DNA of 38,859 nt from a virus. Every line of letters begins with the position of its first letter. Positions within the stretch are counted from its first letter, which is position 1. Below the pieces are notes generated by a model. The model saw only the letters and a program-made list of their open reading frames with translations. It was not told where the DNA came from and did not search any database. Made by a program: the position numbers and the translations under genes. Where the stretch lies: the IMG/VR virus record IMGVR_UViG_3300030061_004292, positions 1-38,859 of that record. One strand, 5' to 3'. This document shows positions 14,427-36,663 of this stretch, in pieces.

Positions 14427-15252
14427 AATTATATTTAGTCAAAGCACCATTAACAATCTTATCAAACATTTTAGTGTTATAGTTAATTGCATCCATTTGA
14501 TCGTCAGTTATTTCAACATCAATTTGCTCAAATAGTTTTAATTTTGGTTTATCATCCATACCAAAATCACCATTATAATAATTTTCTTCAATACCAACCG
14601 TAACCGGATTTGATGTATCAACAGATCTAATATTATAAATGTCATTCTTTCGATACCACGAAAACTCTCTTGCTAAAGAACAACCTAACAAGTGATGAGG
14701 TTTATCCCAATTCCAATGCCCTTCATCAATAAGTCTTTGCACTAGTTGTTGTCGTCCTGATGCGCATTTTTCTAGTATTGTTCTTCCCATACCTGTAACA
14801 CCATACATACTAAAATCAAAACTAATTCCAATATAGTCAGCCCAAGTTGACATAAACTTATAACAATCTACTACTTCTTGCCAACAGCTCCCTTGTACAA
14901 CCCCAATAGCTTTACCCGGTACGTTATCAAAATTGGTCATAAAAGTTTCATACTTATGAATAGTAGAATAGCCATCTTCTAAAACATCAGGTACAATATA
15001 AAAATTAGGTTTAATTATTCTAGCCCACTCTACATATTTTTCTGAATCAAAAGATTCACCTAACTCAAAAATTGAATTATCTAAAAGTATTTGACCATTA
15101 GGTCTTAGAGCTCTATATCTTTCAGTAAACCACTCTCTATATTTCTCTTGTTCTTCCAACAAGTGGACTAAACAATATTGATAGTCATTAAACACTAACG
15201 ACTCTTCTAAAATCGAAACTGGGCATTCATGTGAAACTAATGTTCTGTTCAT
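14416..15252 (-). CDS. TGT/DpdA-like TIM-barrel protein (tRNA or DNA base exchange)
   Basis: 278 residues. LLDNSIFELGES (57-67), FYIVPDVLED (84-93), GKAIGVVQGS (113-122), ADYIGISFDF (138-147), HHLLGCSLARE (186-196) and IRSVDTSNP (208-216) follow the strand-loop pattern of tRNA-guanine transglycosylase and phage DpdA-type enzymes. Those exchange guanine for 7-deazaguanine bases. If it is DpdA-like, the target would be phage DNA; partner genes for preQ0 synthesis are not in the window. An early-type promoter places TATAAT 6 bases before the ATG. The assignment rests on motif style only. Confidence 0.5.
   Translation of the reverse strand: MNRTLVSHECPVSILEESLVFNDYQYCLVHLLEEQEKYREWFTERYRALRPNGQILLDNSIFELGESFDSEKYVEWARIIKPNFYIVPDVLEDGYSTIHKYETFMTNFDNVPGKAIGVVQGSCWQEVVDCYKFMSTWADYIGISFDFSMYGVTGMGRTILEKCASGRQQLVQRLIDEGHWNWDKPHHLLGCSLAREFSWYRKNDIYNIRSVDTSNPVTVGIEENYYNGDFGMDDKPKLKLFEQIDVEITDDQMDAINYNTKMFDKIVNGALTKYNYEV
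14432..14439 (-). promoter_or_regulatory. T4-type late promoter element (variant)
   Basis: ACTAAATA on the minus strand, 5 bases before the ATG at 14426, inside the 3' end of the TGT-like gene. Confidence 0.5.
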
Positions 15253-15258
15253 ACGTCT

Positions 15259-15286
15259 ATTATAGATTAAAACTGAATAACGTCAA
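15259..15286 (-). promoter_or_regulatory. Sigma70-type promoter, leaderless junction
   Basis: TTGACG (15286-15281), 16 bp spacer, TATAAT (15264-15259), 6 bases, ATG at 15252. The stop codon of the upstream gene (15283-15285) is inside the -35 hexamer. The spacer lacks the GGGAAC box. Confidence 0.7.
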
Positions 15287-15732
15287 TTAGGAAAAGGCCA
15301 TACATATTCTAGATCATCTTTTTCTTGAGGCCAAACTTGTCTATAAAAGTCAGGTTGTTTTTGAATTAGCCTACTCCTATGCGATTGATGAATATCTTTT
15401 CTTCCTAACCATTTAGGGTATACATGGGGTTTATTTTTATTATAATGTGCACCTATTTTATGAAAACATGTGTCTTTATATCCTCTTTCTTTCCATGCTA
15501 TACAAACATCTAATCCGTATTCTACTAAAGCATTAGAATAGTCGTGTTTATCTTTAATATACCACATATGTCTGCAAGGATGATTTTTCCATCCTTTGTA
15601 AGGTGTACCTTCCTTTGAAGCTTTGATTGAATTTAGGAGTTGTAAAACTTCAACTCTTTGTTTACCTAATCTTTTTTGATCAAGCACTTTAGCGCTTTTG
15701 TAAAAATTATTATAAGGCAAAAACGTTTGCAT
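15283..15732 (-). CDS. Pyrimidine-dimer DNA glycosylase-like protein (MSMEG_6728-type)
   Basis: 149 residues. MQTFLPYNNFYKSAKVLDQK, RLGKQRVEVLQLL, HPCRHMW and IHQSHRSRLIQKQPDFYRQ match the conserved signature of small proteins annotated as MSMEG_6728 family or endonuclease V-like pyrimidine dimer glycosylases. T4 encodes a related function (DenV). The likely role is base-excision repair of UV damage. TATAAT and AAGG lie directly before the ATG. Family membership looks good; the enzymatic role is by analogy. Confidence 0.75.
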   Translation of the reverse strand: MQTFLPYNNFYKSAKVLDQKRLGKQRVEVLQLLNSIKASKEGTPYKGWKNHPCRHMWYIKDKHDYSNALVEYGLDVCIAWKERGYKDTCFHKIGAHYNKNKPHVYPKWLGRKDIHQSHRSRLIQKQPDFYRQVWPQEKDDLEYVWPFPN

Positions 15733-15746
15733 TACCTTATTATAAA

Positions 15747-16067
15747 TTAATCCTCAAAATTTTCAATAGCATTCTGCTTCATGAATCTATTGTAAATTAT
15801 TCTTCCTAGTTCCGCGGAGTATTTTCTAACTTTATATTCAGGTTCATCGAAAAAAAAGGCATGAGTAATTTCTTCAATAATAACGTTTAGTTTGCGCCTT
15901 TTTCCTAATGATTCGTCTACAATAATTTTTCTTTCGTTTGAAGAAGGATCATAACACCACCCATCCGCTCGTTCATCTATATCTATTGACTCAAAATAGA
16001 TAGGTATTCTAATTCCATCCCATCTAGTAATATAATGTTGCGGCTTACGTTTCTTTTTTTTATTCAT
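15747..16067 (-). CDS. Small metallopeptidase-like protein
   Basis: 106 residues. A Lys-rich start (MNKKKKRKPQ) is followed by LNVIIEEITHAFFFDEPEY. This has the spacing of a zinc peptidase helix (E-E-x-x-H), and a later acidic helix could supply a third ligand. The first position of the usual HExxH is Glu here, so activity is doubtful. Minimal Zn-protease-like proteins of this type occur in many tailed phages. It is probably transcribed with its neighbours. Confidence 0.55.
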   Translation of the reverse strand: MNKKKKRKPQHYITRWDGIRIPIYFESIDIDERADGWCYDPSSNERKIIVDESLGKRRKLNVIIEEITHAFFFDEPEYKVRKYSAELGRIIYNRFMKQNAIENFED

Positions 16068-16112
16068 ACCCGAACGTATTGGTTTATTCTATTTAAAAAT
16101 GGTATAAAAAAA

Positions 16113-16544
16113 TCAATGAAGATATTCTGCATCTTCTTCCCAATCAGGTCTCCAACCCGGTAAATATAAATCTAATATATCTTTAGCTGCTTCTCTAGAT
16201 TCTTTATCAAATTTTCCAGGCGAGAGATAAACATAATGTAAAAATTGAGTTATTTCATTCCATTTTTCGGGGTTATCAGCTGCTATTTTTTCGACAAACT
16301 CTTCAAATTGAGTCATCATTCCTGAATCTATAGACGATTCAGTACTTGACCCAAAAGTTCTATACATTATTATTGTCTTAGCACCTAACCCGTCCGGATC
16401 TTTTCTAAAAGTTATCTTTTTATCCCCCACTATATCAGAAGTAAAAGGAGGCAATCTATGTCTATCAGAACCACCTCTTCCAGGGTCTCCTGTCATTACT
16501 TTTTCTGCTAATACGTAAATGCTTTTTTGGTCTTTATCGAACAT
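16113..16544 (-). CDS. Hypothetical late protein
   Basis: 143 residues with no signal peptide or membrane segment. A Gly/Arg/Asp-rich region (GDPGRGGSDRHR) is followed by an alpha-helical acidic C-terminal half with several Trp (WNEI, WRPDWEED). I do not recognise the family. A perfect TATAAATA lies 9 bases before the ATG. That element overlaps the start codon of the divergent plus-strand gene, so the two promoters may compete. Confidence 0.65.
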   Translation of the reverse strand: MFDKDQKSIYVLAEKVMTGDPGRGGSDRHRLPPFTSDIVGDKKITFRKDPDGLGAKTIIMYRTFGSSTESSIDSGMMTQFEEFVEKIAADNPEKWNEITQFLHYVYLSPGKFDKESREAAKDILDLYLPGWRPDWEEDAEYLH

Positions 16545-16547
16545 AGT

Positions 16548-16555
16548 TTTAAATA
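16548..16555 (+). promoter_or_regulatory. T4-type late promoter element (variant)
   Basis: TTTAAATA, 5 bases before the plus-strand ATG at 16561. It overlaps the divergent minus-strand element at 16554. Confidence 0.45.
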
Positions 16556-16561
16556 TTTATA
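16554..16561 (-). promoter_or_regulatory. T4-type late promoter element, overlapping divergent pair
   Basis: TATAAATA on the minus strand, 9 bases before the ATG at 16544. It covers the first base of the divergent gene's start codon. Confidence 0.65.
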
Positions 16562-16728
16562 TGGTCACTTGCCAAAATTGTAAAATGGAAGTGCCAAATG
16601 AACTACATTTAATGCTTTTTACAAGACATGAATGGGGAAAGTTAAAATCTGGACATGGGGTACAAAAATTTATTTGTAAAGAATGTATAGATAAATTCAG
16701 TAAAAAAGATACAATTAGTAATGACTAA
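16561..16728 (+). CDS. Small zinc-ribbon-like protein
   Basis: 55 residues starting MVTCQNCKMEV. Two Cys pairs (CQNC near 4-7 and CKEC near 43-46) could bind one zinc ion, as in small zinc ribbons. The start at 16561 fits a late element 5 bases upstream. It overlaps the next gene by 8 bases (ATGACTAA), which implies coupled translation. The function is unknown. Confidence 0.6.
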   Translation: MVTCQNCKMEVPNELHLMLFTRHEWGKLKSGHGVQKFICKECIDKFSKKDTISND

Positions 16729-16927
16729 AGATCAATTATTAATAAAAGTAAACCATATGGTTTTTAACAAACTGGTAATGATTTTTTCAGGTTTTGTTTT
16801 TGGAGTCATAATAGGGAGTATCACGACATACTATTTAACTGATCAGGAAAGTGACGACTACATAAAAGGGTATACAGACGCCATGGTGAATATTTATGAA
16901 AACGAACCTAAAGTACAAACTGAATAA
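16721..16927 (+). CDS. Small single-pass membrane protein
   Basis: 68 residues. One strong transmembrane helix (LVMIFSGFVFGVIIGSITTY, about 19-38) is followed by an acidic C-terminal tail. It is coupled to the zinc-ribbon-like gene. A holin, antiholin or envelope role is possible but cannot be told from the sequence. Its TAA stop lies inside the late element for the next gene. Confidence 0.65.
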   Translation: MTKDQLLIKVNHMVFNKLVMIFSGFVFGVIIGSITTYYLTDQESDDYIKGYTDAMVNIYENEPKVQTE

Positions 16928-16930
16928 ATA
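16923..16930 (+). promoter_or_regulatory. T4-type late promoter element containing a stop codon
   Basis: AATAAATA; its TAA (16925-16927) is the stop of the preceding gene. The next start is 55 bases on, so unlike the other late units this mRNA would have a leader. Confidence 0.55.
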
Positions 16931-16985
16931 TTTGTGTCTAGAGGAACAAGATTGTCTGCTTGTTACCTTAATAGAAAGAAAAAAA

Positions 16986-17564
16986 ATGAAAACATTAATC
17001 AAAGTAGTCGCTCTAGCAGTTACGCTAGCGGTAGCGACTTCAGTTAACGCACAGGTAAAACCTGATAAGGGACCGAAGGGTAAAGATAAAGTTACCCATC
17101 GCGATGGAAAGAAACCTTCTAAAGAAGATATTAAAAAACGCTTAGAATCAGCTAAAAAGAAACGCGCACAAAAGCAAAGAGATGCTAAGAAACGCGGTTC
17201 AAAAGTTAGCGAACGTAAAAACAGCCCTCGTGGTAGATCATTTGGAAGGCTAGTTCGTTCTGATGATAAACTTGCTGGACTCGTAAAAGAGTGGAGAGGT
17301 AAGGAAACAGAACTTAAAAAGAAGAGCAGAGCTCTTTGGGAGAAGTTAAAGAAGTCTGATGACGATGCTGTAAAAGCTAAGCTTAGAGCAGCTCTTGGAG
17401 AGTTAAGAAAGTCACATGGAGATGCATCTAAGAAACATCGTGAAGAAATCGGTGCTCGTTTAAAAGAACTAGGTAAAGGTGATTGGTTTAAAAATGATCG
17501 TAAGAAACAGCTCGATAATGAGCGTAAAGGTGATCGCAAACGTCGCGGTAAACCTGGAGAATAA
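16986..17564 (+). CDS. Exported, highly basic helical protein
   Basis: 192 residues from ATG 16986. The start is chosen because a good signal peptide follows (MKTLIKVVALAVTLAVATSV, cut after NA). The mature part is about 170 residues with roughly 40% Lys plus Arg, predicted long helices, and a segment around 95-155 with regular charged heptads. GC content and use of CGT/CGC codons are higher than in neighbours, suggesting acquisition from a bacterium. Export of a basic helical protein could serve envelope or outer-membrane disruption, or binding of nucleic acid or polyanionic glycans. These are guesses. A strong terminator follows. Confidence 0.75.
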   Translation: MKTLIKVVALAVTLAVATSVNAQVKPDKGPKGKDKVTHRDGKKPSKEDIKKRLESAKKKRAQKQRDAKKRGSKVSERKNSPRGRSFGRLVRSDDKLAGLVKEWRGKETELKKKSRALWEKLKKSDDDAVKAKLRAALGELRKSHGDASKKHREEIGARLKELGKGDWFKNDRKKQLDNERKGDRKRRGKPGE

Positions 17565-17587
17565 TTAAACTATCAGAAAATAATCGA

Positions 17588-17613
17588 AGAGCCCCTTAGG
17601 GGGCTCTTTTTTT
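17588..17613 (+). terminator. Rho-independent terminator
   Basis: AGAGCCCC, loop TTAG, GGGGCTCT, then a run of T. It ends the transcript of the basic exported protein. Confidence 0.9.
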
Positions 17614-17625
17614 GACCGCTATTAA

Positions 17626-17633
17626 CATAAATA
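17626..17633 (+). promoter_or_regulatory. T4-type late promoter element
   Basis: CATAAATA, 8 bases before the ATG at 17642. Confidence 0.6.
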
Positions 17634-17641
17634 GTAACATC

Positions 17642-18745: not shown

Positions 18746-18773
18746 AACTTGTTCAGAGATATAAGTTAACGTT

Positions 18774-23040: not shown

Positions 23041-23232
23041 CTAACCGTTCAATTCACTAACAACCTCTACACTATCTGCATCAATTGTAAAACCATCACC
23101 TAATTCAATAACGTCTATCCTACCATCATCGAACCCACACACAATACCATCTTCAATATCCTCACCTTTCATCTTGACGATACTACCAATTCTAATCTCT
23201 TTACCCTCTTTATCTTTTATCATATCTTCCAT
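23041..23232 (-). CDS. Small early protein with SH3/KOW-like barrel pattern
   Basis: 63 residues. IRIGSIVKMKGED, IVCGFDDGRIDVIEL and FTIDADSVEVV suggest a small beta barrel like SH3 or KOW domains, which often bind RNA or protein. It is acidic. The ATG is exactly 7 bases after the -10 hexamer of an early promoter, so the mRNA is probably leaderless. Confidence 0.65.
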   Translation of the reverse strand: MEDMIKDKEGKEIRIGSIVKMKGEDIEDGIVCGFDDGRIDVIELGDGFTIDADSVEVVSELNG

Positions 23233-23238
23233 GCTATA

Positions 23239-23267
23239 ATTATATTGTAGTTCCCAATCTCAATCCA
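23239..23267 (-). promoter_or_regulatory. Early promoter with GGGAAC box
   Basis: Weak -35 TGGATT, spacer with GGGAACTAC, TATAAT, TATAGC, ATG. The stop of the upstream gene (23260-23262) touches the -35. Confidence 0.7.
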
Positions 23268-23704: not shown

Positions 23705-23733
23705 ATTATAAGCTGGTTCCCAATCCTATTCAA
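23705..23733 (-). promoter_or_regulatory. Early promoter with GGGAAC box
   Basis: TTGAAT, 17 bp spacer with GGGAACCAG, TATAAT. The upstream TAG stop (23726-23728) overlaps the end of the -35. Confidence 0.75.
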
Positions 23734-23920
23734 TGTCATTCTCATCAACTGTAATACCCTCTTCACCTAGCTCCATCATCGAATAGCTCACATTACCATC
23801 ATCATCGACATCGACACCTACCACTATGAAATCAGACCCCTCATGCAGATCTTCTGCTGGTATGATATCCCCTTTATCGAATCGAGTCTCAAAGCGTATT
23901 GCACCACGAGTAAACGTCAT
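23726..23920 (-). CDS. Small acidic early protein
   Basis: 64 residues. MTFTRGAIRFETRFDKGDII and IVVGVDVDDDGNVSYSMMEL suggest a small beta-rich fold. It has a strong GAGGAGG ribosome site and overlaps the preceding 33-residue gene in ATGA, so it is the second gene of a two-gene unit. The function is unknown. Confidence 0.65.
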   Translation of the reverse strand: MTFTRGAIRFETRFDKGDIIPAEDLHEGSDFIVVGVDVDDDGNVSYSMMELGEEGITVDENDIE

Positions 23921-24018
23921 TTAGCCTCCTCTTCTTTATTGGTTGCTTCCAGCTCAGAGAGGTCTGTATCAAACATCTCTTCCAACTCAATCTCAGCTAA
24001 TCTTAGCATATCTTCCAT
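23917..24018 (-). CDS. 33-residue acidic leaderless peptide
   Basis: MEDMLRLAEIELEEMFDTDL, then SELEATNKEEEAK. One amphipathic acidic helix. The ATG follows the early promoter -10 by 6 bases, and the stop overlaps the next start in ATGA. The ideal promoter and coupling make this a convincing tiny gene. Confidence 0.65.
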   Translation of the reverse strand: MEDMLRLAEIELEEMFDTDLSELEATNKEEEAK

Positions 24019-24024
24019 GCTATA

Positions 24025-24053
24025 ATTATATGGTGGTTCCCTATTTGGGTCAA
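24025..24053 (-). promoter_or_regulatory. Early promoter with GGGAAC box (divergent pair, minus arm)
   Basis: TTGACC, 17 bp spacer with GGGAACCACC, TATAAT, TATAGC, ATG at 24018. It faces away from the plus-strand copy at 24080. Confidence 0.85.
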
Positions 24054-24079: not shown

Positions 24080-24108
24080 TTGACTCGAATTGGGAACTAG
24101 CTTATAAT
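24080..24108 (+). promoter_or_regulatory. Early promoter with GGGAAC box (divergent pair, plus arm)
   Basis: TTGACT, 17 bp spacer with GGGAACTAGC, TATAAT, then TGTAGA. This is the only plus-strand member of the family in the window. The transcript would start near 24115 and run against the gene direction of this region. Confidence 0.85.
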
Positions 24109-25422: not shown

Positions 25423-25591
25423 AACTAACCTTTACTTTATTACCAACTCTATCTTGATATGATTCATACAAAAATGCTATTTCATCCTTACTACCATGCT
25501 CTATTAGATTTAACATATATGCTTCTGCATGTTCATACAATACACTTACTTTTTGATCTTCAGTTATCATCTTCAAATACTCAATGTCCAT
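25412..25591 (-). CDS. Small helical early protein
   Basis: 59 residues from ATG 25591 (MDIEYLKMITEDQKVSVLYE). Acidic and helical throughout, ending VGNKVKVSFDE. The start overlaps the stop of the upstream gene (ATGGACATTGA). The function is unknown. Confidence 0.6.
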   Translation of the reverse strand: MDIEYLKMITEDQKVSVLYEHAEAYMLNLIEHGSKDEIAFLYESYQDRVGNKVKVSFDE

Positions 25592-25805
25592 AATCTTTAT
25601 GCGCTCCAGCCTCTTCGTTATCATCATAACCTGCATGATACTCTGCTATTTCTTTTGGAGTCATATCTGTCTGCTTAAATCTATTTCCGCCATTCTTATG
25701 ATCTATCCAATGAGGATTACGGCTGCGATAATACCAGCTATCAGCTGCACCCCTATCATATGGGCTTCCGTGCTCTCTTCCTTCTGGCTTCTTCATAACT
25801 TCCAT
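25581..25805 (-). CDS. Small early protein, first of a six- or seven-gene operon
   Basis: 74 residues. It is rich in His, Gly, Tyr and Asp (HGSPYDRGAADSWYYRSRNP, then HAGYDDNEEAGAHKDYGH). The basic-acidic mix and many aromatic residues give no clear fold. The ATG follows the early promoter -10 by 6 bases. The genes at 25591, 25422, 25295, 25125, 24872 and 24588 lie behind it with overlaps or short gaps, so this promoter probably drives them all. Confidence 0.65.
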   Translation of the reverse strand: MEVMKKPEGREHGSPYDRGAADSWYYRSRNPHWIDHKNGGNRFKQTDMTPKEIAEYHAGYDDNEEAGAHKDYGH

Positions 25806-25811
25806 GCTATA

Positions 25812-25840
25812 ATTATAAGGTCGTTCCCAATCTCAATCAA
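25812..25840 (-). promoter_or_regulatory. Early promoter with GGGAAC box
   Basis: TTGATT, 17 bp spacer with GGGAACGACC, TATAAT, TATAGC, ATG at 25805. The upstream TGA stop (25833-25835) overlaps the -35 by one base. Confidence 0.85.
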
Positions 25841-26030
25841 GAGCATAATCACTCAGATCTTCAGTAATCTTGATATCATGCATTCTTGTAATCCATTCAA
25901 TAGCTCTGAGAGATTCATCTCCTCCCATAAATCTAAAGAGCTCTTCAGCCAGCTTCTCTTGAAAGAACTCATGGCTGGTTGTCTCTTTGAGCTCTTCTAA
26001 TATCGCAAACACTTTATTCATTTCAGTCAT
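25833..26030 (-). CDS. Small acidic helical early protein
   Basis: 65 residues, MTEMNKVFAILEELKETTSH, helical and acidic, ending ITEDLSDYALD. It overlaps the preceding gene by 8 bases (ATGACTGA) and has no promoter of its own. The function is unknown. Confidence 0.6.
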   Translation of the reverse strand: MTEMNKVFAILEELKETTSHEFFQEKLAEELFRFMGGDESLRAIEWITRMHDIKITEDLSDYALD

Positions 26031-26187
26031 TATTATTGATCTTGTCGAAGTTTCTTACTATAATATTACAAATGTCAGTGATATGCTCATCTTTGATCTG
26101 TGGAAAGTCATCAAAATATGTTATGATATCCTCTTGGATTTGCTCTCTTGCTTCGATTACCTCTCTTGCATCTTTCATATTCATCAT
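26023..26187 (-). CDS. 54-residue leaderless early protein
   Basis: MMNMKDAREVIEAREQIQED, then YFDDFPQIKDEHITDICNII. The start at 26187 is set by the early promoter, whose -10 lies 6 bases upstream; a longer frame to 26226 would read through the promoter itself. Helical and acidic, function unknown. Confidence 0.65.
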   Translation of the reverse strand: MMNMKDAREVIEAREQIQEDIITYFDDFPQIKDEHITDICNIIVRNFDKINNND

Positions 26188-26193
26188 GCTAAA

Positions 26194-26222
26194 ATTATAT
26201 GGTAGTTCCCAATACGAGTCAA
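26194..26222 (-). promoter_or_regulatory. Early promoter with GGGAAC box
   Basis: TTGACT, 17 bp spacer with GGGAACTACC, TATAAT, TTTAGC, ATG at 26187. The upstream stop (26219-26221) is inside the -35. Confidence 0.85.
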
Positions 26223-26542
26223 TCAATTACTCCGAATTCATACAATCCTCTATCTGTCTTTGGAAGATCCAGATTACAAGCATCAAATCCACAAACCTCT
26301 CCATTCTTGAATTCAACATAATAGGTTGTGTAACATCTTTTCCAATCACGAATACGCTTTCCATCAGGAGTACTAACTGCAATAACTCTTCCTCTCCGAC
26401 CTTCAAAAGATTGTCTCCTTTTGCTATTCCAATCAGCTTTAACATCCTCATTCACAATTGCGTGCAATCCTGGAAGGAACTTACTATTGAAATGTCCCCA
26501 ATTCCACAATACTCGCGCTCTGATATCTTGCTTTCTCATCAT
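26219..26542 (-). CDS. Basic early protein with SH3/Tudor-like pattern
   Basis: 107 residues. MMRKQDIRARVLWNWGHFNS, then FEGRRGRVIAVSTPDGKRIR, then YYVEFKNGEVCGFDACNLDL. Alternating short strands with Gly turns suggest a small beta barrel that may bind nucleic acid. It is basic at the start. The start codon follows the promoter -10 by 6 bases. Confidence 0.65.
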   Translation of the reverse strand: MMRKQDIRARVLWNWGHFNSKFLPGLHAIVNEDVKADWNSKRRQSFEGRRGRVIAVSTPDGKRIRDWKRCYTTYYVEFKNGEVCGFDACNLDLPKTDRGLYEFGVID

Positions 26543-26548
26543 GCTATA

Positions 26549-26577
26549 ATTATAATGTCGTTCCTTACCTCAATCAA
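26549..26577 (-). promoter_or_regulatory. Early promoter with AGGAAC box variant
   Basis: TTGATT, 17 bp spacer with AGGAACGACA in place of GGGAAC, TATAAT, TATAGC, ATG at 26542. The upstream TGA stop (26570-26572) overlaps the -35 by one base. Confidence 0.8.
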
Positions 26578-26824
26578 GCAGAGTTAATCCATCCGCATTA
26601 AGAACATTCTTGAGACCTTCCCAAGATCCATTAGATTTCGGACAAGCAAGATCATCATCATCCATTATAATCAAAAGATCATGAAGAAGTATATTCACAT
26701 CCAAGTCCTTATTCTCTCTCAGACTCAAGCTGACATATGCATAAATCTCTTTCGCTACAGAATACGTATTCTCGATGCTCTTCTTGCATTCGCCTCCATC
26801 ATCATAATCTCTTATCGCTCTCAC
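26570..26824 (-). CDS. Small early protein with non-AUG start
   Basis: 84 residues if GTG 26824 is used. The promoter's -10 is followed by TATTGT and then ATT GTG AGA in frame, so translation may even begin at the ATT at +1. A longer frame with an ATG at 26857 would have to read through the promoter and is rejected. The protein is helical and acidic with DYDDGGECKKSIENTY near the start. The function is unknown. Confidence 0.6.
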   Translation of the reverse strand: MRAIRDYDDGGECKKSIENTYSVAKEIYAYVSLSLRENKDLDVNILLHDLLIIMDDDDLACPKSNGSWEGLKNVLNADGLTLLD

Positions 26825-26833
26825 AATACAATA

Positions 26834-26862
26834 ATTATAAGGTCGTTCCCTATTCACCTCAA
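26834..26862 (-). promoter_or_regulatory. Early promoter with GGGAAC box
   Basis: TTGAGG, 17 bp spacer with GGGAACGACC, TATAAT, followed by TATTGTATTGTG rather than ATG. Confidence 0.8.
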
Positions 26863-27619: not shown

Positions 27620-27797
27620 TAAAATACTTATCCTCTTTGTTGCTCATACGGATCATTTTGTTAATACTTTTAAGAGTTTCTTCATCAGCACTCCAACGTT
27701 CTTCATCAGACCAACTAAAGACTGTGACCTTCAGTTCAGAGCGTTCATCGCGCTCGCTGCTGTCAGTGCTGCTGTTAGTTTCTCTTTTGCTACCCAC
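27483..27797 (-). CDS. Overlapping ORF between RadA-like and membrane genes
   Basis: An open frame fills the gap between the RadA-like stop (27731) and the membrane gene start (27619), then runs 137 bases into the latter. Possible starts are GTG 27797, a CTG joined to the RadA stop, or ATG 27656. The sequence LKVTVFSWSDEERWSADEET looks protein-like, and the end (NRIKPPKTPRPDDPGGQV) is Pro-rich. A pair of this type, a membrane protein with an overlapping Pro-rich partner, recalls nested spanin genes, but no lipobox is visible. The exact start is unresolved. Confidence 0.4.
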   Translation of the reverse strand: MGSKRETNSSTDSSERDERSELKVTVFSWSDEERWSADEETLKSINKMIRMSNKEDKYFNESSLDVVGNFLSDIFWRGIYLAKQICNRIKPPKTPRPDDPGGQV

Positions 27798-28684
27798 TTC
27801 GCTGTTGGCCCTCTCCCTATTTTATTTAGCTTACCTTCAGTAGTCAATTCCCTTAGAGCTGTATTCACATATACATCACTAACGTTATACTTTTCTACGA
27901 GCTCTTTAACCGTTACACTCTTTCCGGTCTTAATGATCTCAGTCTTGATATGCTCTTTCTTATTAGCTTTACCAACATGCTTCTTTGCATTATCTACAAC
28001 GATCTTTGCGCTCATATCAAACCCTTTAGCAGTCATAAACAAGTCAACACTATTAGTTGGTCCGAATCGATTCTTCGAAAACCAAATCGTACGAGCTTCA
28101 TCATCTACTTCTGGATTAGGAGCTATATTAAGATTTGCATCTACCGTATGAGGCACAACAGTCGAGCCTTTCAGCTTACCTGCTTTAGTCAAATGCATCA
28201 CAAAGCAAACACAGCACTCATTCTTCTGACCAGCCTTAACAAGCTGCTGCACTGCATAACGCTCCTTAGCCATAAAGTTCATCTTCTGCTTTGTAGTAGT
28301 AGCCTGAAAGCTATCAACTACCAAGAAGTCGAGATTCTCAGTCAACTTTGCAAGCTCGTCAATATCGCTCAAGTTAGCAATACTCAAAGAAGTTGCTCCG
28401 ATTCGCTTACAAGTAAATGTAAGCTGGTATACATTTTCTTCACCAGAACAATAACCCACCTTATACCCATTCTTTGCCAAACCATCCAACAACTGCACCA
28501 TAAAGGTAGTCTTACCACAACCAGCCTGTGCGGTAATTGTCATAGACGATCCTGGGAGGAATCCTTCCTGCAATAGATCATTATCTATCACATTGATCCC
28601 TGTTGTCATCCTTCTGTAGAAGATATCCGGTACAACTATTTCATTTACCGGCCGTAATTCTGTTTGTTTAAACCCTAGATTCAT
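27731..28684 (-). CDS. RadA/Sms-like ATPase with C-terminal winged helix
   Basis: 317 residues. Walker A AQAGCGKT at 52-59, Walker B LDFLVVDSF at 118-126, and KNRFG at 204-208, the motif specific to RadA. RadA is a RecA-fold, DnaB-like motor that drives branch migration and D-loop unwinding. The zinc finger and the Lon-like domain of bacterial RadA are absent. Residues about 255-305 instead resemble a winged helix-turn-helix (VTVKELVEKYNVSDVYVNTA). This is probably a phage recombination/replication motor. A sigma70-type promoter and a good ribosome site (AGAGGAG) lie upstream. Confidence 0.75.
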   Translation of the reverse strand: MNLGFKQTELRPVNEIVVPDIFYRRMTTGINVIDNDLLQEGFLPGSSMTITAQAGCGKTTFMVQLLDGLAKNGYKVGYCSGEENVYQLTFTCKRIGATSLSIANLSDIDELAKLTENLDFLVVDSFQATTTKQKMNFMAKERYAVQQLVKAGQKNECCVCFVMHLTKAGKLKGSTVVPHTVDANLNIAPNPEVDDEARTIWFSKNRFGPTNSVDLFMTAKGFDMSAKIVVDNAKKHVGKANKKEHIKTEIIKTGKSVTVKELVEKYNVSDVYVNTALRELTTEGKLNKIGRGPTAKWVAKEKLTAALTAASAMNALN

Positions 28685-28702
28685 ATCAATTTAACTCCTC
28701 TT

Positions 28703-28730
28703 ATTATAGTTGGTTCCTTTCGATCGTCAA
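28703..28730 (-). promoter_or_regulatory. Early promoter, AGGAAC variant with leader
   Basis: TTGACG, 16 bp spacer with AGGAACCAAC, TATAAT. Unlike most family members it is followed by a leader carrying a Shine-Dalgarno before the RadA-like ATG. Confidence 0.75.
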
Positions 28731-28744: not shown

Positions 28745-29029
28745 CTATGCAACATACTCGTTTTTTGGCTTGAATGCCTGTCCCCAAGTAGTGCAGAATC
28801 CGGAGTCATGTTCCTCTTCAATAAACTTCTCCACTAAATCATAATCAACCTCTACAGGCATATCCTCCAGAGATTGGAGATGAAAGAATGTCTTGGACTT
28901 AAATGTTTCCAGATCCATTCTTGACCCAGCCTCAAATTCATACCTCCAATTGTTATAAAAAGCTTCATTCAACAACTTCAATATTTGGCTATCAAGCTCC
29001 GTCAATCCTTTACCATCTACATTTAACAT
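28745..29029 (-). CDS. Small acidic early protein
   Basis: 94 residues. MLNVDGKGLTELDSQILKLL, then FYNNWRYEFEAGSRMDLETF and a C-terminal GFCTTWGQAFKPKNEYVA. Leaderless start 6 bases after the early -10. Mixed helical fold, function unknown. Confidence 0.65.
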   Translation of the reverse strand: MLNVDGKGLTELDSQILKLLNEAFYNNWRYEFEAGSRMDLETFKSKTFFHLQSLEDMPVEVDYDLVEKFIEEEHDSGFCTTWGQAFKPKNEYVA

Positions 29030-29035
29030 GCTATA

Positions 29036-29064
29036 ATTATAAGGTAGTTCCCAATACGGCTCAA
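29036..29064 (-). promoter_or_regulatory. Early promoter with GGGAAC box
   Basis: TTGAGC, 17 bp spacer with GGGAACTACC, TATAAT, TATAGC, ATG at 29029. The upstream stop (29061-29063) lies inside the -35. Confidence 0.85.
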
Positions 29065-29372
29065 GCCCATTCTCTTCTGAGATTATCTAATTTCATCTCA
29101 ATGATCTCTAATTCCGCCACAGCAACATATGGACTATCTGCTCTTGATGCAAATTTAGATTTGAAATAATCCAAATGATCTTCAATAGATTCGCATGTCA
29201 TGTCCATATGATAATCTAAAGCATTCATCTCATTTTCAGAAGGATCATTTGCAACATCTTCAAGAACATTTTCTTTCATTATTTTGGCATGTTCATCAAT
29301 TTGCCTTCTGTTCATCCTACCCAATTTAAGTTGTTCACTTGCAGTCATATTCTTTTCTTTACAAATTATCAT
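29061..29372 (-). CDS. Helical early protein
   Basis: 103 residues from ATG 29372 (TAATG overlap with the upstream stop). The protein is charged and helical (LGRMNRRQIDEHAKIMKENV), with Met-rich His/Asp sequence DYHMDMTCESIEDH in the middle. The function is unknown. Confidence 0.6.
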   Translation of the reverse strand: MIICKEKNMTASEQLKLGRMNRRQIDEHAKIMKENVLEDVANDPSENEMNALDYHMDMTCESIEDHLDYFKSKFASRADSPYVAVAELEIIEMKLDNLRREWA

Positions 29373-29668
29373 TATGCCCACCCTAATGGATTTACTGACA
29401 AGTTTGGCATACCGCTAACTTCTTGATCAATATTGCAATGGGATGTGCTTCGAGAATCTGTAGGTTCCATGCTTGGAGGAGCATCAACTGCATTTGTAGC
29501 CATTCCTCTCGTAAATGCTATACCGTATAAATGTGTAAAAACATTATCAAGACTATCCTTATCAACTGTCACTTGATTGTACATAATATGATCCCAATTA
29601 TTTTTGATACCATATTTTTCTTTCAACATTTCAACCAATTCCTCTCTACTCGTATACATACTTTCCAT
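29372..29668 (-). CDS. Small early protein
   Basis: 98 residues, MESMYTSREELVEMLKEKYG, then a segment rich in Ser, Pro and Asn. The leaderless ATG lies 6 bases after the -10. It ends in TAATG overlap with the next gene. The function is unknown. Confidence 0.65.
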   Translation of the reverse strand: MESMYTSREELVEMLKEKYGIKNNWDHIMYNQVTVDKDSLDNVFTHLYGIAFTRGMATNAVDAPPSMEPTDSRSTSHCNIDQEVSGMPNLSVNPLGWA

Positions 29669-29674
29669 GCTATA

Positions 29675-29703
29675 ATTATAAGGTAGTTCCCAATCCTGGT
29701 CAA
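29675..29703 (-). promoter_or_regulatory. Early promoter with GGGAAC box (best match)
   Basis: TTGACC, 17 bp spacer with GGGAACTACC, TATAAT, TATAGC, ATG at 29668. The upstream stop (29700-29702) lies inside the -35. Confidence 0.88.
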
Positions 29704-30428
29704 GGGGTTACTCCATTAGTCTCAGAAAAAGCAAGCCCTTGATTGATGTGTTTATTCTTTTTGAAAAATTTACTAAAGCAATGTCCCATCTCTACGCATT
29801 CTGTGTAAAGATCATTTCTGTATTCTGATATCAACAAATCAAACAAATTATTAAACTCCTCTGCAAATTTAAGTTCTTTATCACAAAATGTTCTTTTTAA
29901 ACCCCAGAACCTCTCAATTGGAAAAATTATCTGACCTTTTTCATTTTTCATAAACTCAACTTCAAAGCCAAGATTTCTAATCTGTCTTATTCTTTTGAAA
30001 GTATGCTCCTCTATGTCTTCTTCTTTGTCGTATGTATGACAAAGTTCATGATAGAATCCTTCTTGATTAAACACAACATCAAACAACTCATTATAAAGAT
30101 GTGCTAGCATGTCTCCATCTACATAGAAAAGAAAGTCGTTTATGTCGACATAGAGGGCCTCGATGAAAGCACGAACTTTAATACAATCGTTATCCCTATA
30201 ATCTTTTTCTTCTATCTTATAGTGATCAAGTATTGGAGAGAAGTCAATTGTGTTAATACAGAGAGGGCTTTCTTTAAAAGTTTCTTCACAATACTCCACA
30301 TGGTTTGTTGCTATCCAAATTTTGGTCTCTTTAGGTAATGATAATAACTCATAACTTTTTATTACCTTACTAAAATAATCTATGTACGGTTTACCTACAC
30401 AGACGGTTACAAAAGAGAGAGACTGCAT
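29700..30428 (-). CDS. GT-A type glycosyltransferase-like protein
   Basis: 242 residues. The start VTVCVGKPYIDYFSKVIKSY and the metal-binding DxD motif in FLFYVDGDMLAHL (DGD at 104-106) fit family GT-A sugar transferases. Further acidic and aromatic residues (HELCHTYDKEED) could bind acceptor. It is probably part of a pathway that modifies host or virion glycans together with the GT11-like enzyme. The late element TCTAAATA lies 5 bases before the ATG, so it is likely made late, when virions assemble. Confidence 0.65.
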   Translation of the reverse strand: MQSLSFVTVCVGKPYIDYFSKVIKSYELLSLPKETKIWIATNHVEYCEETFKESPLCINTIDFSPILDHYKIEEKDYRDNDCIKVRAFIEALYVDINDFLFYVDGDMLAHLYNELFDVVFNQEGFYHELCHTYDKEEDIEEHTFKRIRQIRNLGFEVEFMKNEKGQIIFPIERFWGLKRTFCDKELKFAEEFNNLFDLLISEYRNDLYTECVEMGHCFSKFFKKNKHINQGLAFSETNGVTP

Positions 30429-32255: not shown

Positions 32256-32711
32256 TTATTTAACAGGAAATTTAAATTGACAGGCATACTCACCCTTTTT
32301 CTGCAAATAATCTGCGTAAACTGTTTGCCAGCTACCGTCTTCGCCTGGTCGCCCGCATTGATGAATTTCTGTTATACCACTAAACCCTAGCTTGGGCATA
32401 TGCTTATGATCTTCAACAACAAGATTGATATTTTTTGGATACTTTTGCTTAAAGAAACTTTCCACCTCTTCAGCTATAGCTTTAGTTTCACAAATAATGG
32501 TACATGAAATTTTAATATCATAGTCTTCGTATTGTTTAGGTTCTACTTTGAATCTATCTTCTGCATTTTTAAAAGTAGTTACTCCAAACTTGTGGAATAT
32601 TGTTGCTCTATCTAATCCTTTTTTATCATTCTTCTTTGTGAACTTTGCAATGTAAAATTTGCAATGATCTCCTTTATACTTTTCGAATGACTTATGCGTA
32701 TATCTTTTCAT
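32256..32711 (-). CDS. T5orf172/GIY-YIG-like nuclease-related protein
   Basis: 151 residues. FYIAKFTKKNDKK, then IFHKFGVTTFKNAEDRFKVE, later EEVESFFKQKYP and ITEIHQCG. This order (Y-I-x-K-F, K-x-G-x-T, R-F, E) resembles the T5orf172/MUG113 branch of GIY-YIG domains. It probably cuts or binds DNA. A second GIY-YIG protein lies about 1.3 kb upstream in the transcription direction. Confidence 0.5.
   Translation of the reverse strand: MKRYTHKSFEKYKGDHCKFYIAKFTKKNDKKGLDRATIFHKFGVTTFKNAEDRFKVEPKQYEDYDIKISCTIICETKAIAEEVESFFKQKYPKNINLVVEDHKHMPKLGFSGITEIHQCGRPGEDGSWQTVYADYLQKKGEYACQFKFPVK
32257..32264 (-). promoter_or_regulatory. T4-type late promoter element (variant)
   Basis: GTTAAATA on the minus strand, 5 bases before the ATG at 32251. 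It overlaps the TAA stop of the upstream gene (32256-32258). Confidence 0.55.
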
Positions 32712-32895
32712 CTTTTTGTTTAACTAGTTGGTACTCCATACTGATTGGAGCGATAGAAGGGCCGTTTACCATCTCATAGAATTGTCTTTTAGCATCCTTG
32801 TCATCAATTGCCCAGAAATAAATATAACTCCAATAATTAGAGGCTGATTTGTTTCTATACTTCTTAGCGTATCTGCTCTTTGCTATCTGCTCCAT
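32692..32895 (-). CDS. Small basic early protein
   Basis: 67 residues. MEQIAKSRYAKKYRNKSASN, then NYWSYIYFWAIDDKDAKRQF, an alpha-beta pattern with many aromatics. Leaderless start (TATAAT, ATAAGC, ATG). It overlaps the next gene by 20 bases. The function is unknown. Confidence 0.6.
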   Translation of the reverse strand: MEQIAKSRYAKKYRNKSASNYWSYIYFWAIDDKDAKRQFYEMVNGPSIAPISMEYQLVKQKDEKIYA

Positions 32896-32901
32896 GCTTA
32901 T

Positions 32902-32930
32902 ATTATAGCTACATCCAATAAAGAAGTCAA
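32902..32930 (-). promoter_or_regulatory. Early-type promoter without GGGAAC box
   Basis: TTGACT, 17 bp spacer (TTATTGGATGTAG core), TATAAT, ATAAGC, ATG at 32895. The upstream stop lies 1 base beyond the -35. Confidence 0.75.
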
Positions 32931-32931
32931 G

Positions 32932-33419: not shown

Positions 33420-33577
33420 TAGGTCGTAAGAGGTGTTGATTCTTCGTTAAACTCTGCAAGTAATTGAGTAAATGCTAAACTGTATCCAGCATCAAAATCA
33501 TCCATTACTTCTCTCTCAACAATTTTCTTTGCTGCCTCCATTACTTTATCGAATATTTCTAATTGTTTATTACTCAT
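33419..33577 (-). CDS. 52-residue acidic helical protein
   Basis: MSNKQLEIFDKVMEAAKKIV, then DDFDAGYSLAFTQLLAEFNE. Two amphipathic helices. It overlaps the GIY-YIG gene's stop by 4 bases (ATGA) and the next gene in TAATG. The function is unknown. Confidence 0.55.
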   Translation of the reverse strand: MSNKQLEIFDKVMEAAKKIVEREVMDDFDAGYSLAFTQLLAEFNEESTPLTT

Positions 33578-34041
33578 TTTTTAAATTTCTTTCTGGTAAA
33601 CTTTCTAGGTCTGTTTCTAAATACATCTTTGCGATTTAGCTTTGGCTTAAGCATACTAATTAAAGTTTGCTCTATTGCCACATATGGGTTAACTGTAATA
33701 GTTTCTGATACAACTATTTTTTCTGGCATATGAATAAAAGTGCAAATATCTGAAGAAGGCTTCTTCTTAAATTCTTCGTTAAAATACTTTCTTACTCTTT
33801 CATTTGTTATGCCAGGATGGCAACAATAAAAGTTCATCCTTCTTTTTAGAAGATCAGAACTCTCTCCAATATAAACTAATTCATCGTTGACATAATGAGC
33901 ATAGATATAATGTCTACTATCACCATCCATTCTTTCTTCTTCATTAGGAGTGACTCTGCATCTTAAATGATTTTTTTCATCCTTATAAAACTCAGTTAAC
34001 CTATAAAAGTCTAACCCTTCTATGTACCTTTTTTGTATCAT
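33574..34041 (-). CDS. GIY-YIG family nuclease
   Basis: 155 residues from ATG 34041. HYIYAHYVNDELVYIGESSD, then LLKRRMNFY and the later catalytic Glu in AIEQTLISMLKPKLNR follow the GIY-YIG order (Y-I-Y, Y-I-G, R, E, N). These nucleases cut DNA and are often mobile or act in host DNA degradation. The basic C-terminus (RPRKFTRKKFKK) should bind DNA. The preceding gene overlaps in ATGA. Confidence 0.75.
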   Translation of the reverse strand: MIQKRYIEGLDFYRLTEFYKDEKNHLRCRVTPNEEERMDGDSRHYIYAHYVNDELVYIGESSDLLKRRMNFYCCHPGITNERVRKYFNEEFKKKPSSDICTFIHMPEKIVVSETITVNPYVAIEQTLISMLKPKLNRKDVFRNRPRKFTRKKFKK

Positions 34042-34379
34042 AAACAAAACTCTCTGAGAAACTTTCCGGGTACTCTCCGGACATCATCACCATCACAAAT
34101 GGTGTAGACAATTTCTCTTCTGTTATTTCTAATTCTTTCGTCTATGTCAATCAAGCTAACAAATCGATTTTTAAACATAGCAGTTTTATAAAGAGCTTTC
34201 TTTCCAAACCTCTTTCTCTTCTCAGGCCACTCATAGCTATTCCAAGGCAGCTCCCACTCTTCTTCCACATTTGGTTCTAATATGTTACCACCTGGTGCTT
34301 TATCATGCGGATAAAAAGAAGCGGGCTTAGGCTTGCCAGGCCTAAACCACTGCTTGTTATTTTTCTTATACTTGTACAT
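34038..34379 (-). CDS. Small basic protein with Pro/Trp-rich N-terminus
   Basis: 113 residues from ATG 34379. MYKYKKNNKQWFRPGKPKPA, then PNVEEEWELPWNSYEWPEKR, and a helical basic end (IDERIRNNRREIVYTICDGD). Possibly nucleic-acid-binding. It starts one base after the DUF932 gene stop, within the same operon. No family is recognised. Confidence 0.6.
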   Translation of the reverse strand: MYKYKKNNKQWFRPGKPKPASFYPHDKAPGGNILEPNVEEEWELPWNSYEWPEKRKRFGKKALYKTAMFKNRFVSLIDIDERIRNNRREIVYTICDGDDVRRVPGKFLREFCL

Positions 34380-34380
34380 C

Positions 34381-35409
34381 TTAGTTAAGAGCAAACTCTG
34401 GCTTATCTACGAGTTGGAACTTATCCTTCAAGAGTGTATTAAACGCTCTATGCTTCAAGTTGTTGTTCATTCCGCCTGTCATATTACTAATAAACCGGCG
34501 CTCAAAAGTCTTGCGATTATCTCGCTTCTCGACTTTCTCACTCTCCATTGATTTAGTAATACGCTTCGAACCTGCATGGTGATCCAAATACTCTGTCACA
34601 GCATTAAATGCATCCCATCTTGTCTTGCCTTGATTACCAAGACCGCGGTGAAAAAGATTTACAATCTCCTCGCGTTTCTTTTCCTGGCTTGTTGCGTGAA
34701 CCCTCTTCTCATCCTTCTTTCGAATATCTGGAAAGATCACATTTGCAAAACCACGAACTTCCTTTTCAGAGATTTTAAACTTCAAAAGCTTCTCTGCCTT
34801 CTTCATGAAAGTCTTGTTACCTTCCATAGCTTTATAAAAAGCACCTCGAACATTATCGAGCCTGTCTTTCCAATTCTTGTGATGTCTAATTGACAACCCA
34901 GAGCGCTTAGCTGTTTGGGTAAAAGAATAAAACTGATTGTTACAAGCAGCCCTATCAGTGTAAGGAAAGATTGCATTGCAACCCATACCAGAATGATCGA
35001 CAATCAACATGGCATAACTCGCCATAATATCACCATCACTCTTATGATCCTCAAACTTCAATTCCTCTGGAAGCTTTGCCTGAACCCAGATCTTGCTTCC
35101 ACCGTGCAATGTACCTGCATTTGTATAGGTAGCATTTGTCTCTTTTACAATTTCATCAAACGGTTGAAGAATTTCTTCCGTTTGAATAACCTCATAATTA
35201 CCACGTACAATATTAAAGACGTGGTTGTTGTCAGTACGCTTCACAGCGTAATAGCCATCTAGAGATCGATCTAGATTGCCTAGATCATCTTTAACAACAT
35301 CGTACTGCATTTCCGCACGACGCATAATCTCTTTTGGTCCGCTCAATCCGTCACAGTCCTTAATACCGATCAGGTCCTCTAAGTTATGTAATTTGTCTCC
35401 AATTAACAT
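34381..35409 (-). CDS. DUF932 / phage-plasmid primase-like family protein (TIGR03299-like)
   Basis: 342 residues. The N-terminal half holds YYAVKRTDNNHVFNIVRGNY, EILQPFDEIV, TLHGGSKIWVQAKLPE and DRAACNNQFYSF, all characteristic of DUF932 proteins found in phages and plasmids. The function is not proven for the family; roles in replication or anti-restriction have been suggested. The C-terminal half is basic and helical. It is coupled by TAATG to a 74-residue gene and has a GAGG ribosome site. Confidence 0.75.
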   Translation of the reverse strand: MLIGDKLHNLEDLIGIKDCDGLSGPKEIMRRAEMQYDVVKDDLGNLDRSLDGYYAVKRTDNNHVFNIVRGNYEVIQTEEILQPFDEIVKETNATYTNAGTLHGGSKIWVQAKLPEELKFEDHKSDGDIMASYAMLIVDHSGMGCNAIFPYTDRAACNNQFYSFTQTAKRSGLSIRHHKNWKDRLDNVRGAFYKAMEGNKTFMKKAEKLLKFKISEKEVRGFANVIFPDIRKKDEKRVHATSQEKKREEIVNLFHRGLGNQGKTRWDAFNAVTEYLDHHAGSKRITKSMESEKVEKRDNRKTFERRFISNMTGGMNNNLKHRAFNTLLKDKFQLVDKPEFALN

Positions 35410-35633
35410 TATATTTCCTCGCTGTTATCTAAATTTTGATAAAAATCTTCTCCGTCTATATTTTCTTTTTTTAATAGACCTGCCTCAACCAAGTTATCAA
35501 GTAAAGTCTGAAGTTCTTGTAAATTTACATCTTCAGCTTTCTGTGCTTGATCAACTAACTCATCTTGATTTACAGTGCAATGATCAAGTAGCTGATCTAC
35601 TGATCCTGTAAATATTTCGTTTTTGTTACTCAT
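35409..35633 (-). CDS. Small acidic early protein with wHTH-like pattern
   Basis: 74 residues. NKNEIFTGSVDQLLDHCTVN, then LQELQTLLDNLVEAGLLKKE, a short helix-turn-helix-like pattern ending in acidic sequence. It could regulate the DUF932 gene that it precedes. An early promoter lies directly upstream, with a 12-base gap from -10 to ATG. Confidence 0.6.
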   Translation of the reverse strand: MSNKNEIFTGSVDQLLDHCTVNQDELVDQAQKAEDVNLQELQTLLDNLVEAGLLKKENIDGEDFYQNLDNSEEI

Positions 35634-35642
35634 GACTCAATA

Positions 35643-35671
35643 ATTATAGGGACGTTCCCAAAGTAAATCAA
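35643..35671 (-). promoter_or_regulatory. Early promoter with GGGAAC box
   Basis: TTGATT, 17 bp spacer with GGGAACGTCC, TATAAT, then TATTGAGTC and ATG at 35633. Confidence 0.8.
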
Positions 35672-35674
35672 CCA

Positions 35675-36010
35675 CTATTTTGTATATACGCCTTCGAGAT
35701 CTTCCCGATTAGCTTCCTCTTGTTCTAATGCACAACCCAGATGTAAATTAGGATGAACCAAATAATCATAATCAGTCTCAAATGTACTCTTACCGCATTC
35801 AACACAAATCCAATGCTTTTTTTCTTCCTGTATATTACGTTCATCTTCCGACATTCGCATTTTATCTACATGCTTAAAGATCTTATCGAGTTGATCTTGA
35901 TAATGTTGTCTTGTCCAGCCATCATTATATGAGCTGCTTGCTTCCAATGCCCAATTGCCCATTTCGCTTATAATTGATTCTGGAGCTATTCTTGTTATTC
36001 CTCCGCTCAT
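35675..36010 (-). CDS. Zinc-finger-like early protein
   Basis: 111 residues from ATG 36010 (ATGA overlap with the upstream gene). An N-terminal helical part with Trp (EMGNWALEASSSYNDGWTRQ) and a C-terminal zinc-ribbon-like pattern: CVECGKSTFET, then HPNLHLGCA, two Cys, His and Cys. It probably binds nucleic acid or protein. The function is unknown. Confidence 0.65.
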   Translation of the reverse strand: MSGGITRIAPESIISEMGNWALEASSSYNDGWTRQHYQDQLDKIFKHVDKMRMSEDERNIQEEKKHWICVECGKSTFETDYDYLVHPNLHLGCALEQEEANREDLEGVYTK

Positions 36011-36198
36011 TTCAGCATCTCCTTTACTTGTTCGTATGATTGCTCTACCATTAGAGTACCGCGTCTTAGATTGATTTGGCAATTATTTGTTCTTTCTACG
36101 GGGTAAAAAGATGATATTTTATCCACGTTAATAGTAATCAATCTCTTTTGACCTGCTGTTAGTCCGCCTGTTGTTACTTCTTTCAATTCAATAAACAT
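36007..36198 (-). CDS. Small FlbD-like beta protein
   Basis: 63 residues. MFIELKEVTTGGLTAGQKRL, INVDKISSFYPV, CQINLRRGTLMVEQSYEQVK. This resembles the short FlbD-like domain that begins IxLT, with a middle V-x-x-I and a final G-x-x-x-x-V-x-E-S-x-x-x-V. The role in phages is unknown. It overlaps the next gene in ATGA. Confidence 0.6.
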   Translation of the reverse strand: MFIELKEVTTGGLTAGQKRLITINVDKISSFYPVERTNNCQINLRRGTLMVEQSYEQVKEMLK

Positions 36199-36204
36199 AT
36201 CTAT

Positions 36205-36232
36205 ATTATGTAAAGTTCCCTTTTTTAATCAA
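36205..36232 (-). promoter_or_regulatory. Early promoter with GGGAAC box (16 bp variant)
   Basis: TTGATT, 16 bp spacer with GGGAACTTTA, CATAAT, then ATAGAT and ATG at 36198. The upstream stop (36229-36231) is inside the -35. Confidence 0.7.
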
Positions 36233-36381
36233 GAGTCTTTTTTGTAAAAATTCTCAAAACTTTTAGGAGTAAATTTTTTCTTTTTACTAATTGGTTCGAA
36301 TTCTTTTTCTTTTGGTTCGAATTCTTTGCTGCTTACCACTTTACCTTGTTTTGGCTTTTTAATGGTTTTAATCTTTTTCAT
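36229..36381 (-). CDS. 50-residue Lys-rich repeat protein
   Basis: MKKIKTIKKPKQGKVVSSKE, then FEPKEKEFEPISKKKKFTPK. EFEP occurs twice. Basic and probably disordered, suited to DNA or RNA binding. It overlaps the upstream gene by 14 bases (TATGAAAAAGATTAA). Confidence 0.5.
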   Translation of the reverse strand: MKKIKTIKKPKQGKVVSSKEFEPKEKEFEPISKKKKFTPKSFENFYKKDS

Positions 36382-36628
36382 AAGAATACTTATAATTTTC
36401 TTCTTCTAGATAGTCGCAAAACTCCGCAACATCTTTCCAATTATTATCTTCAATATCTTTCAAAATGATCTTTTTTATCTTTTTCAAGTGCGGATATAAT
36501 TCATCAATACAACATTCTAAATCATCAAAATTTCTATTTAGATTTGCTGCCCACTCTTTGATCATCCAGATAAGATTAAGAGCTTTTGTGTTCTTTAACT
36601 CTTTTGATCTTGCATTGTCCCTTATCAT
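36368..36628 (-). CDS. Helical early protein
   Basis: 86 residues. MIRDNARSKELKNTKALNLI, then EWAANLNRNFDDLECCIDEL. A charged helical protein. Leaderless start 6 bases after the -10 (TATAAT, TAAAGC, ATG). It ends in SYEKD in an overlap with the next gene. Confidence 0.6.
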   Translation of the reverse strand: MIRDNARSKELKNTKALNLIWMIKEWAANLNRNFDDLECCIDELYPHLKKIKKIILKDIEDNNWKDVAEFCDYLEEENYKYSYEKD

Positions 36629-36634
36629 GCTTTA

Positions 36635-36663
36635 ATTATAGGGTGGTTCCCTACATTAGTCAA
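36635..36663 (-). promoter_or_regulatory. Early promoter with GGGAAC box
   Basis: TTGACT, 17 bp spacer with GGGAACCACC, TATAAT, TAAAGC, ATG at 36628. The upstream TAA stop (36656-36658) overlaps the -35. Confidence 0.85.

Follow-up and report, generated by a model that had tools for sequence, protein, structure and literature searches.

Leaderless genes, in which the -10 box lies adjacent to the open reading frame (ORF), are well documented for Deinococcus-Thermus and Actinobacteria (PMC12340547, PMC3160421). In T4-like phages, PeSL cassettes consisting of an early promoter and a terminator stem-loop are found between genes and, as outlined in PMC4503421, have been proposed to serve gene shuffling (Comeau et al. 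2014). Here we describe a 38.9-kb IMG/VR virus record (IMGVR_UViG_3300030061_004292; the whole stretch is referred to as the window) from an uncultured T4-like phage, in which promoters are repeatedly fused to the start codon of the following gene and to the stop codon of the preceding one. The full element in the window reads TTGA-N8-GGGAAC-N5-TATAAT-N6-ATG, with a conserved spacer. We consider it likely (probability about 0.8) that transcription from these compact promoters begins at the A of the ATG, in which case the mRNAs would be leaderless (or carry ~3 nt before the AUG) and be translated without a Shine-Dalgarno (SD) sequence.

Geometry of the unit in the window and its relatives

Exact matches to TTGA-N17..20-TATAAT-N6-ATG number ten in the window against 0.03 expected from shuffles, all on the - strand and in gene direction. 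Regardless of the ATG, TTGA-N17..20-TATAAT is found at 20 sites (1.3 expected), 15 of which are on the - strand within 15252-36663. The -35 and -10 boxes thus stand at the ~17-bp spacing typical of sigma70 promoters. At two further sites the ATG follows a weaker box at the same 6-nt gap; at 23230 GGGAAC and TATAAT are intact and TTGA is misplaced, and at 36196 the -10 reads CATAAT. In the spacer, GGGAAC stands 5 nt before TATAAT; GGGAACNACCNTATAAT has 13 matches in the window when up to three mismatches are allowed (1.1 expected), and the commonest 6-nt sequence between TATAAT and ATG is TATAGC. With the A of the ATG counted as +1, GGAAC occupies positions -22 to -18. Shuffles and reversed-pattern controls rule out a chance origin of these junctions.

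Using the helicase-like gene of the window (27731-28684) as query, close relatives were identified in G001 (L001) and G002 (L011, L018, L019), and a search with a helicase alignment (A1) recovered 50 loci, mostly 41-93% identical to the window gene; among isolated phages the helicase search gave weak matches only. Judged by its genes, the group belongs among the T4-like phages, where it is placed by a gp20-type portal in the relative G003; a gp55-family late sigma is encoded in another relative, and neither gene lies in the window fragment.

Histograms compiled over ~45 related contigs (877 kb; the clade) were compared with T4 (75 kb) and HTVC008M (97 kb). The ATG follows TATAAT at a gap of 6 in 200 cases compared with ~42 per bin outside gaps 5-7 (~5-fold enrichment), GGAAC lies exactly 5 nt before TATAAT in 243 cases compared with 0-6 at every other spacing, and the late box TAAATA is followed by ATG at a gap of 5 in 189 cases compared with ~22 per bin. 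Neither T4 nor HTVC008M has a GGAAC peak or a TATAAT gap-6 peak. HTVC008M has a small late-box peak at gap 5 (11), and the TAAATA-N5-start arrangement was found in none of the T4 genes tested. The strict GGAAC unit is present in 91 viral-contig stretches, with up to ten copies per stretch.

In the window subgroup GGAAC and the -35 box often occur together, while most relatives carry GGAAC in place of the -35 box. Outside the close group, 121 leaderless promoters have GAAC only, 32 a -35 TTG only, 21 both and 30 neither, indicating that the two elements are mutually alternative (odds ratio 0.16, p = 1.7e-7). The distant relative G007 has no GGAAC, yet carries TAG-TTGC-N19-TATAAT-N6-ATG many times. 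A second promoter series was observed in G007:C1 at ~63-84 kb on the - strand (L033, L034), in which TATAAT-N6-ATAACAACAATTAACAAC precedes the ATG; this repeated CAA-rich leader of ~26 nt has no SD and alternates with versions of this promoter that lack a leader.

An earlier note on this DNA, made from the sequence alone, had counted at least 15 junctions, which is correct, and about 11 starts at the exact gap, close to the ~12 found here (ten exact plus the two with a weaker box). It had made the pattern depend on the 6-base gap being kept in related genomes, and the clade-wide gap-6 peak shows that it is. Its core, TTGA-N17-TATAAT, has to be replaced by GGAAC-N5-TATAAT-N6-ATG, the -35 box being absent in most relatives, and the pattern extends across the related contigs rather than being confined to one phage. 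Nor is the gap invariant: it measures 5, 6, 7 or 9 nt, and some lineages have a leader at the helicase gene where others have none. The assignment of the junctions to an early type can be kept only tentatively, as the GGAAC class also drives a replication helicase gene, and such genes often belong to the middle class in T4.

Probable leaderless transcription and its alternatives

The 3' end of the sigma70 -10 box lies at -7 and that of the T4 late box at about -6. A gap of 6 after TATAAT and a gap of 5 after TAAATA are therefore each right for their own factor, and +1 would fall on the A of the ATG in both. This agreement of two boxes with two matching gaps is the strongest sequence argument for leaderless transcripts. 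As expected for leaderless genes, the -10 box ends ~6 nt before the start above chance and SD sequences are not enriched. A 4-base SD core stands before 6% of the clade genes outside the close group (background 6%), compared with 53% vs 8% in T4, 44% vs 4% in HTVC008M and 54% vs 17% in P23-45.

By homology, the start codons of the fused genes are genuine. Residue 1 of the pyrimidine dimer glycosylase (Pyr_excise, 15283-15732) coincides with position 1 of the Pfam model, and several orthologs in L001 and L018/L019 share the same ATG start. In three ortholog pairs (29029 and 25805 vs L001; 36628 vs L019) the N-termini differ in length and both members start directly after the promoter, as if the ATG were part of the promoter unit. 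The fixed gaps, the SD frequency at background level and the conserved starts together argue for a leaderless start from a sigma70-type promoter, as had been predicted.

Instead of promoters, TATAAT-N6 and GGAAC might be signals for the translation of polycistronic mRNAs, on which an A/U-rich site and a distant UAAGGA SD would permit reinitiation after an overlapping stop. TAAGGA does resemble the SD complement, stops often lie directly next to TAAGGA, and the units lie at co-directional junctions. This explanation is improbable, however, given that GGAAC lies 17 nt upstream of the ATG, beyond SD range, that TATAAT is kept as an exact hexamer at a fixed gap, that a -35 box at 17-bp spacing is also present in the window and in G007, and that late genes have a different box with a different gap. 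It is quite improbable, too, that these are ordinary sigma70 promoters with short leaders whose true starts lie further downstream, leaving the first ATG unused. A second ATG does follow within a few codons in some units (ATGGAAGATATG), and there are gaps of 9-18 nt, but Pyr_excise homology begins at the first ATG, orthologs retain it, later ATGs have no preceding SD and the gap-6 peak is sharp. That a single promoter unit was recently amplified here, the gap and GGGAAC being functionally unconstrained, would fit the close likeness of the window copies (TTGGGAACTACCTTATAATTATAGCATG) but is highly improbable, since GGAAC, TATAAT and the gap persist amid varying neighbours in phages with helicases 41-50% identical and G007 has the same architecture in unrelated sequence; such repeat expansion is largely refuted by the relatives.

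Leaderless transcription from start-fused promoters must also be weighed against several observations. The mRNA 5' ends at the ATG are inferred from the sequence, and no factor reading GGAAC was found. The same promoter family stands in the window at gaps of 9, 13 and 18 nt (35643, 26834, 23705, 28703). The helicase gene promoter retains GGAAC-N5-TATAAT in most lineages; its ATG is at a gap of 5-7 in ~17 of 40 lineages and further off, leaving a leader, in the rest, that is in more than half. Many genes carry neither signal and may be expressed as downstream operon members. Leaderless expression is common, not obligatory.

Stop codons and candidate readers of GGAAC

All ten stop codons that the earlier note had described as lying in or touching the -35 were located. 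TGA lies within TTGA at 15283, 26219, 29061, 29700 and 36229, and at 23726, 25833, 26570 and 36656 the stop lies across the 3' edge of the -35 hexamer; at 23260 the TTGA containing the TGA is placed 4 nt too near the -10 to be a real -35. The regular fusion of stop, promoter and start claimed there is upheld. Among 151 distinct leaderless GAAC promoters, a long upstream ORF runs into 107, and 104 of these ORFs terminate in the interval from -40 to +8 relative to TATAAT, where stops peak as TAA ahead of GGAAC (21), as TAG sharing bases with GGAAC (10) and as stops directly next to TATAAT (16). Stop triplets offered at -13, -12 or -3 are used in 31-45% of cases, close to the ~1/3 expected from the reading frame alone, suggesting that the stops come with the promoter and that each gene terminates at whichever is in its frame. 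The fusion would then be mostly dense packing and not necessarily a coupling device. A purpose-made coupling role for the stop codon is unsupported by this usage, and the stop merger looks like packing on stop triplets within the promoter sequence.

We propose that a sigma70-type RNA polymerase (RNAP), of the host or possibly with a phage RpoD-like sigma in some relatives, reads TATAAT at -12 to -7, and that a second contact at GGAAC replaces the -35 TTGA box, or supplements it in the window subgroup. GGAAC may be bound by a phage factor or by an RNAP or sigma surface over the spacer. Late genes would use a T4 gp55-type TAAATA box with its matching 5-nt gap. A gene running into the promoter would end at the stop triplets there, producing a stop-promoter-start fusion in ~30 bp, and the unit, including the start codon, seems to be reused as a module before small genes. 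More tentatively, and with somewhat less than even confidence, GGAAC-N5-TATAAT promoters may form a new class whose -35 is replaced by a contact at -22 to -18, phage-encoded or made by core RNAP, within a whole T4-like clade that has abandoned SD sequences for leaderless early/middle and late mRNAs and carries portable, start-codon-bearing units that end the preceding gene.

RpoD-like sigmas with regions 1.2, 2, 3 and 4 are encoded at L085:991-2142 (-) and L086:985-2148 (-) in the relatives G017 and G010. They could serve GGAAC-type promoters; nothing ties them to GGAAC, and as specific readers of it they are unproven, their region 4 retaining the standard VTRERIRQIEAK helix. GGAAC as the -35 of an extracytoplasmic function (ECF) sigma was rejected, as it lies 5 nt from the -10 and not ~16 nt. 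The MotA and AsiA profiles (PF09114, PF09010) had no match in the clade records, which are fragments, and the controls were also without a match. The nearest known basal element is the zipper-binding Z-element at -17/-18, which adjoins or barely overlaps GGAAC (PMC5101437).

Table 1. Promoter-start junctions and related features of the window
Feature	Position	Strand	Adjoining gene and remarks
TTGA-TATAAT-N6-ATG, without GGGAAC	15250..15286	-	gene 14416-15252; stop of 15283-15732 within TTGA; junction also in L001, L018
TTGA-TATAAT-N6-ATG	15730..15766	-	gene 15283-15732 (Pyr_excise glycosylase)
GGGAAC-N5-TATAAT-N6-ATG, no good -35	23230..23255	-	gene 23041-23232
TTGA-GGGAAC-TATAAT promoter	23705..23733	-	next ATG at gap 13
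TTGA-GGGAAC-TATAAT-N6-ATG	24016..24053	-	small ORF 23917-24018
TTGA-GGGAAC-TATAAT-N6-ATG	25803..25840	-	gene 25581-25805; 25833-26030 ends at edge of -35 hexamer
TTGA-GGGAAC-TATAAT-N6-ATG	26185..26222	-	gene 26023-26187; stop of 26219-26542 within TTGA
TTGA-AGGAAC-TATAAT-N6-ATG	26540..26577	-	gene 26219-26542; 26570-26857 ends at edge of -35 hexamer
TTGA-GGGAAC-TATAAT promoter	26834..26862	-	GTG start at gap 9
TTGA-AGGAAC-TATAAT promoter, helicase-like gene	28682..28730	-	18-nt gap with SD-like GAGGAG
TTGA-GGGAAC-TATAAT-N6-ATG	29027..29064	-	gene 28745-29029; stop of 29061-29381 within TTGA
TTGA-GGGAAC-TATAAT-N6-ATG	29666..29703	-	gene 29372-29668; stop of 29700-30428 within TTGA
TTGA-TATAAT-N6-ATG, without GGGAAC	32893..32930	-	gene 32692-32895
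TTGA-GGGAAC-TATAAT, ATG at gap 9 (TATTGAGTC ATG)	35631..35671	-	gene 35409-35633; L019 has same 9-nt gap
TTGA-GGGAAC-CATAAT-N6-ATG	36196..36232	-	gene 36007-36198; stop of 36229-36381 within TTGA
TTGA-GGGAAC-TATAAT-N6-ATG	36626..36663	-	gene 36368-36628; 36656-36877 ends at edge of -35 hexamer
Full TTGA-GGGAAC-TATAAT copy, reverse orientation, no start codon nearby	24080..24108	+	
Late-type TAAATA-N5-GTG junction	6201..6214	-	gene 4812-6203; similar before 6233-7354 and 7418-9340
Late-type TAAATA-N5-ATG junction	9746..9759	+	gene 9757-10443

Neighbouring features and comparison with known systems

The + strand copy at 24080-24108 is possibly an antisense or small-RNA promoter. The genes between 4812 and 9340 (-), with late-type TAAATA-N5-GTG junctions, encode long repetitive Thr/Gln/Pro-rich proteins that are probably tail-fibre-like, and the helicase gene, served by the promoter at 28682-28730, is among the few window genes with an SD-like site (GAGGAG).

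L001 contains a DUF1552 (HXXSHH) gene at 10007-11254 (-) (Pfam 1.8e-80), and an ORF of equal length, known by length alone, lies at L018:11177-12424 (+). The L001 gene is possibly host-derived and hints weakly at a Planctomycetota/Verrucomicrobiota host; scans of genome contigs for the host were without any match. Sparse use of SD sequences has been described for Planctomycetes, Bacteroidetes and Cyanobacteria. If leaderless transcription holds, many genes in a large uncultured branch of the T4-like phages are expressed from mRNAs lacking 5' leaders, which points to hosts with little SD use, and start-codon calling in such contigs must change. The compact promoter of ~30 bp also raises the question of what reads GGAAC between the -35 and the -10. 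No report of such junctions in phages was found in the literature searched; as its coverage left out most subscription papers, this negative carries little weight.

Thermus phages such as P23-45 are reported to have leaderless middle and late transcripts; P23-45 is an unrelated phage, with an SD before about half of its genes in the part examined. The leaderless genes of Deinococcus-Thermus and Actinobacteria resemble the present ones in their leaderless mRNA, in a -10 box located ~12 nt before the start codon, and in lacking an SD and usually also a -35; unlike in those cellular genomes, the arrangement occurs here in T4-like phages, includes the GGAAC element, extends to a second (late) promoter class and is fused to the preceding stop. 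PeSL cassettes, as far as they are described in PMC4503421, are likewise repeated early-promoter units between small genes of T4-like phages; at the fused junctions, a stop in or touching the -35 and an ATG after the -10 leave no room for their stem-loop.

The MotA box of T4 middle promoters is centred near -30. Those promoters also combine a TATAAT lacking a -35 with another conserved upstream element, whereas the element described here lies at -22 to -18. T4 late promoters (gp55) share the TAAATA-type box, in keeping with the gp55-family sigma of a relative, but many clade genes differ in having the start codon 5 nt after it. A T4-like clade with both promoter classes fused to the start codon, and with GGAAC at -22 to -18, thus appears to represent a new variant of the known start-adjacent promoters.

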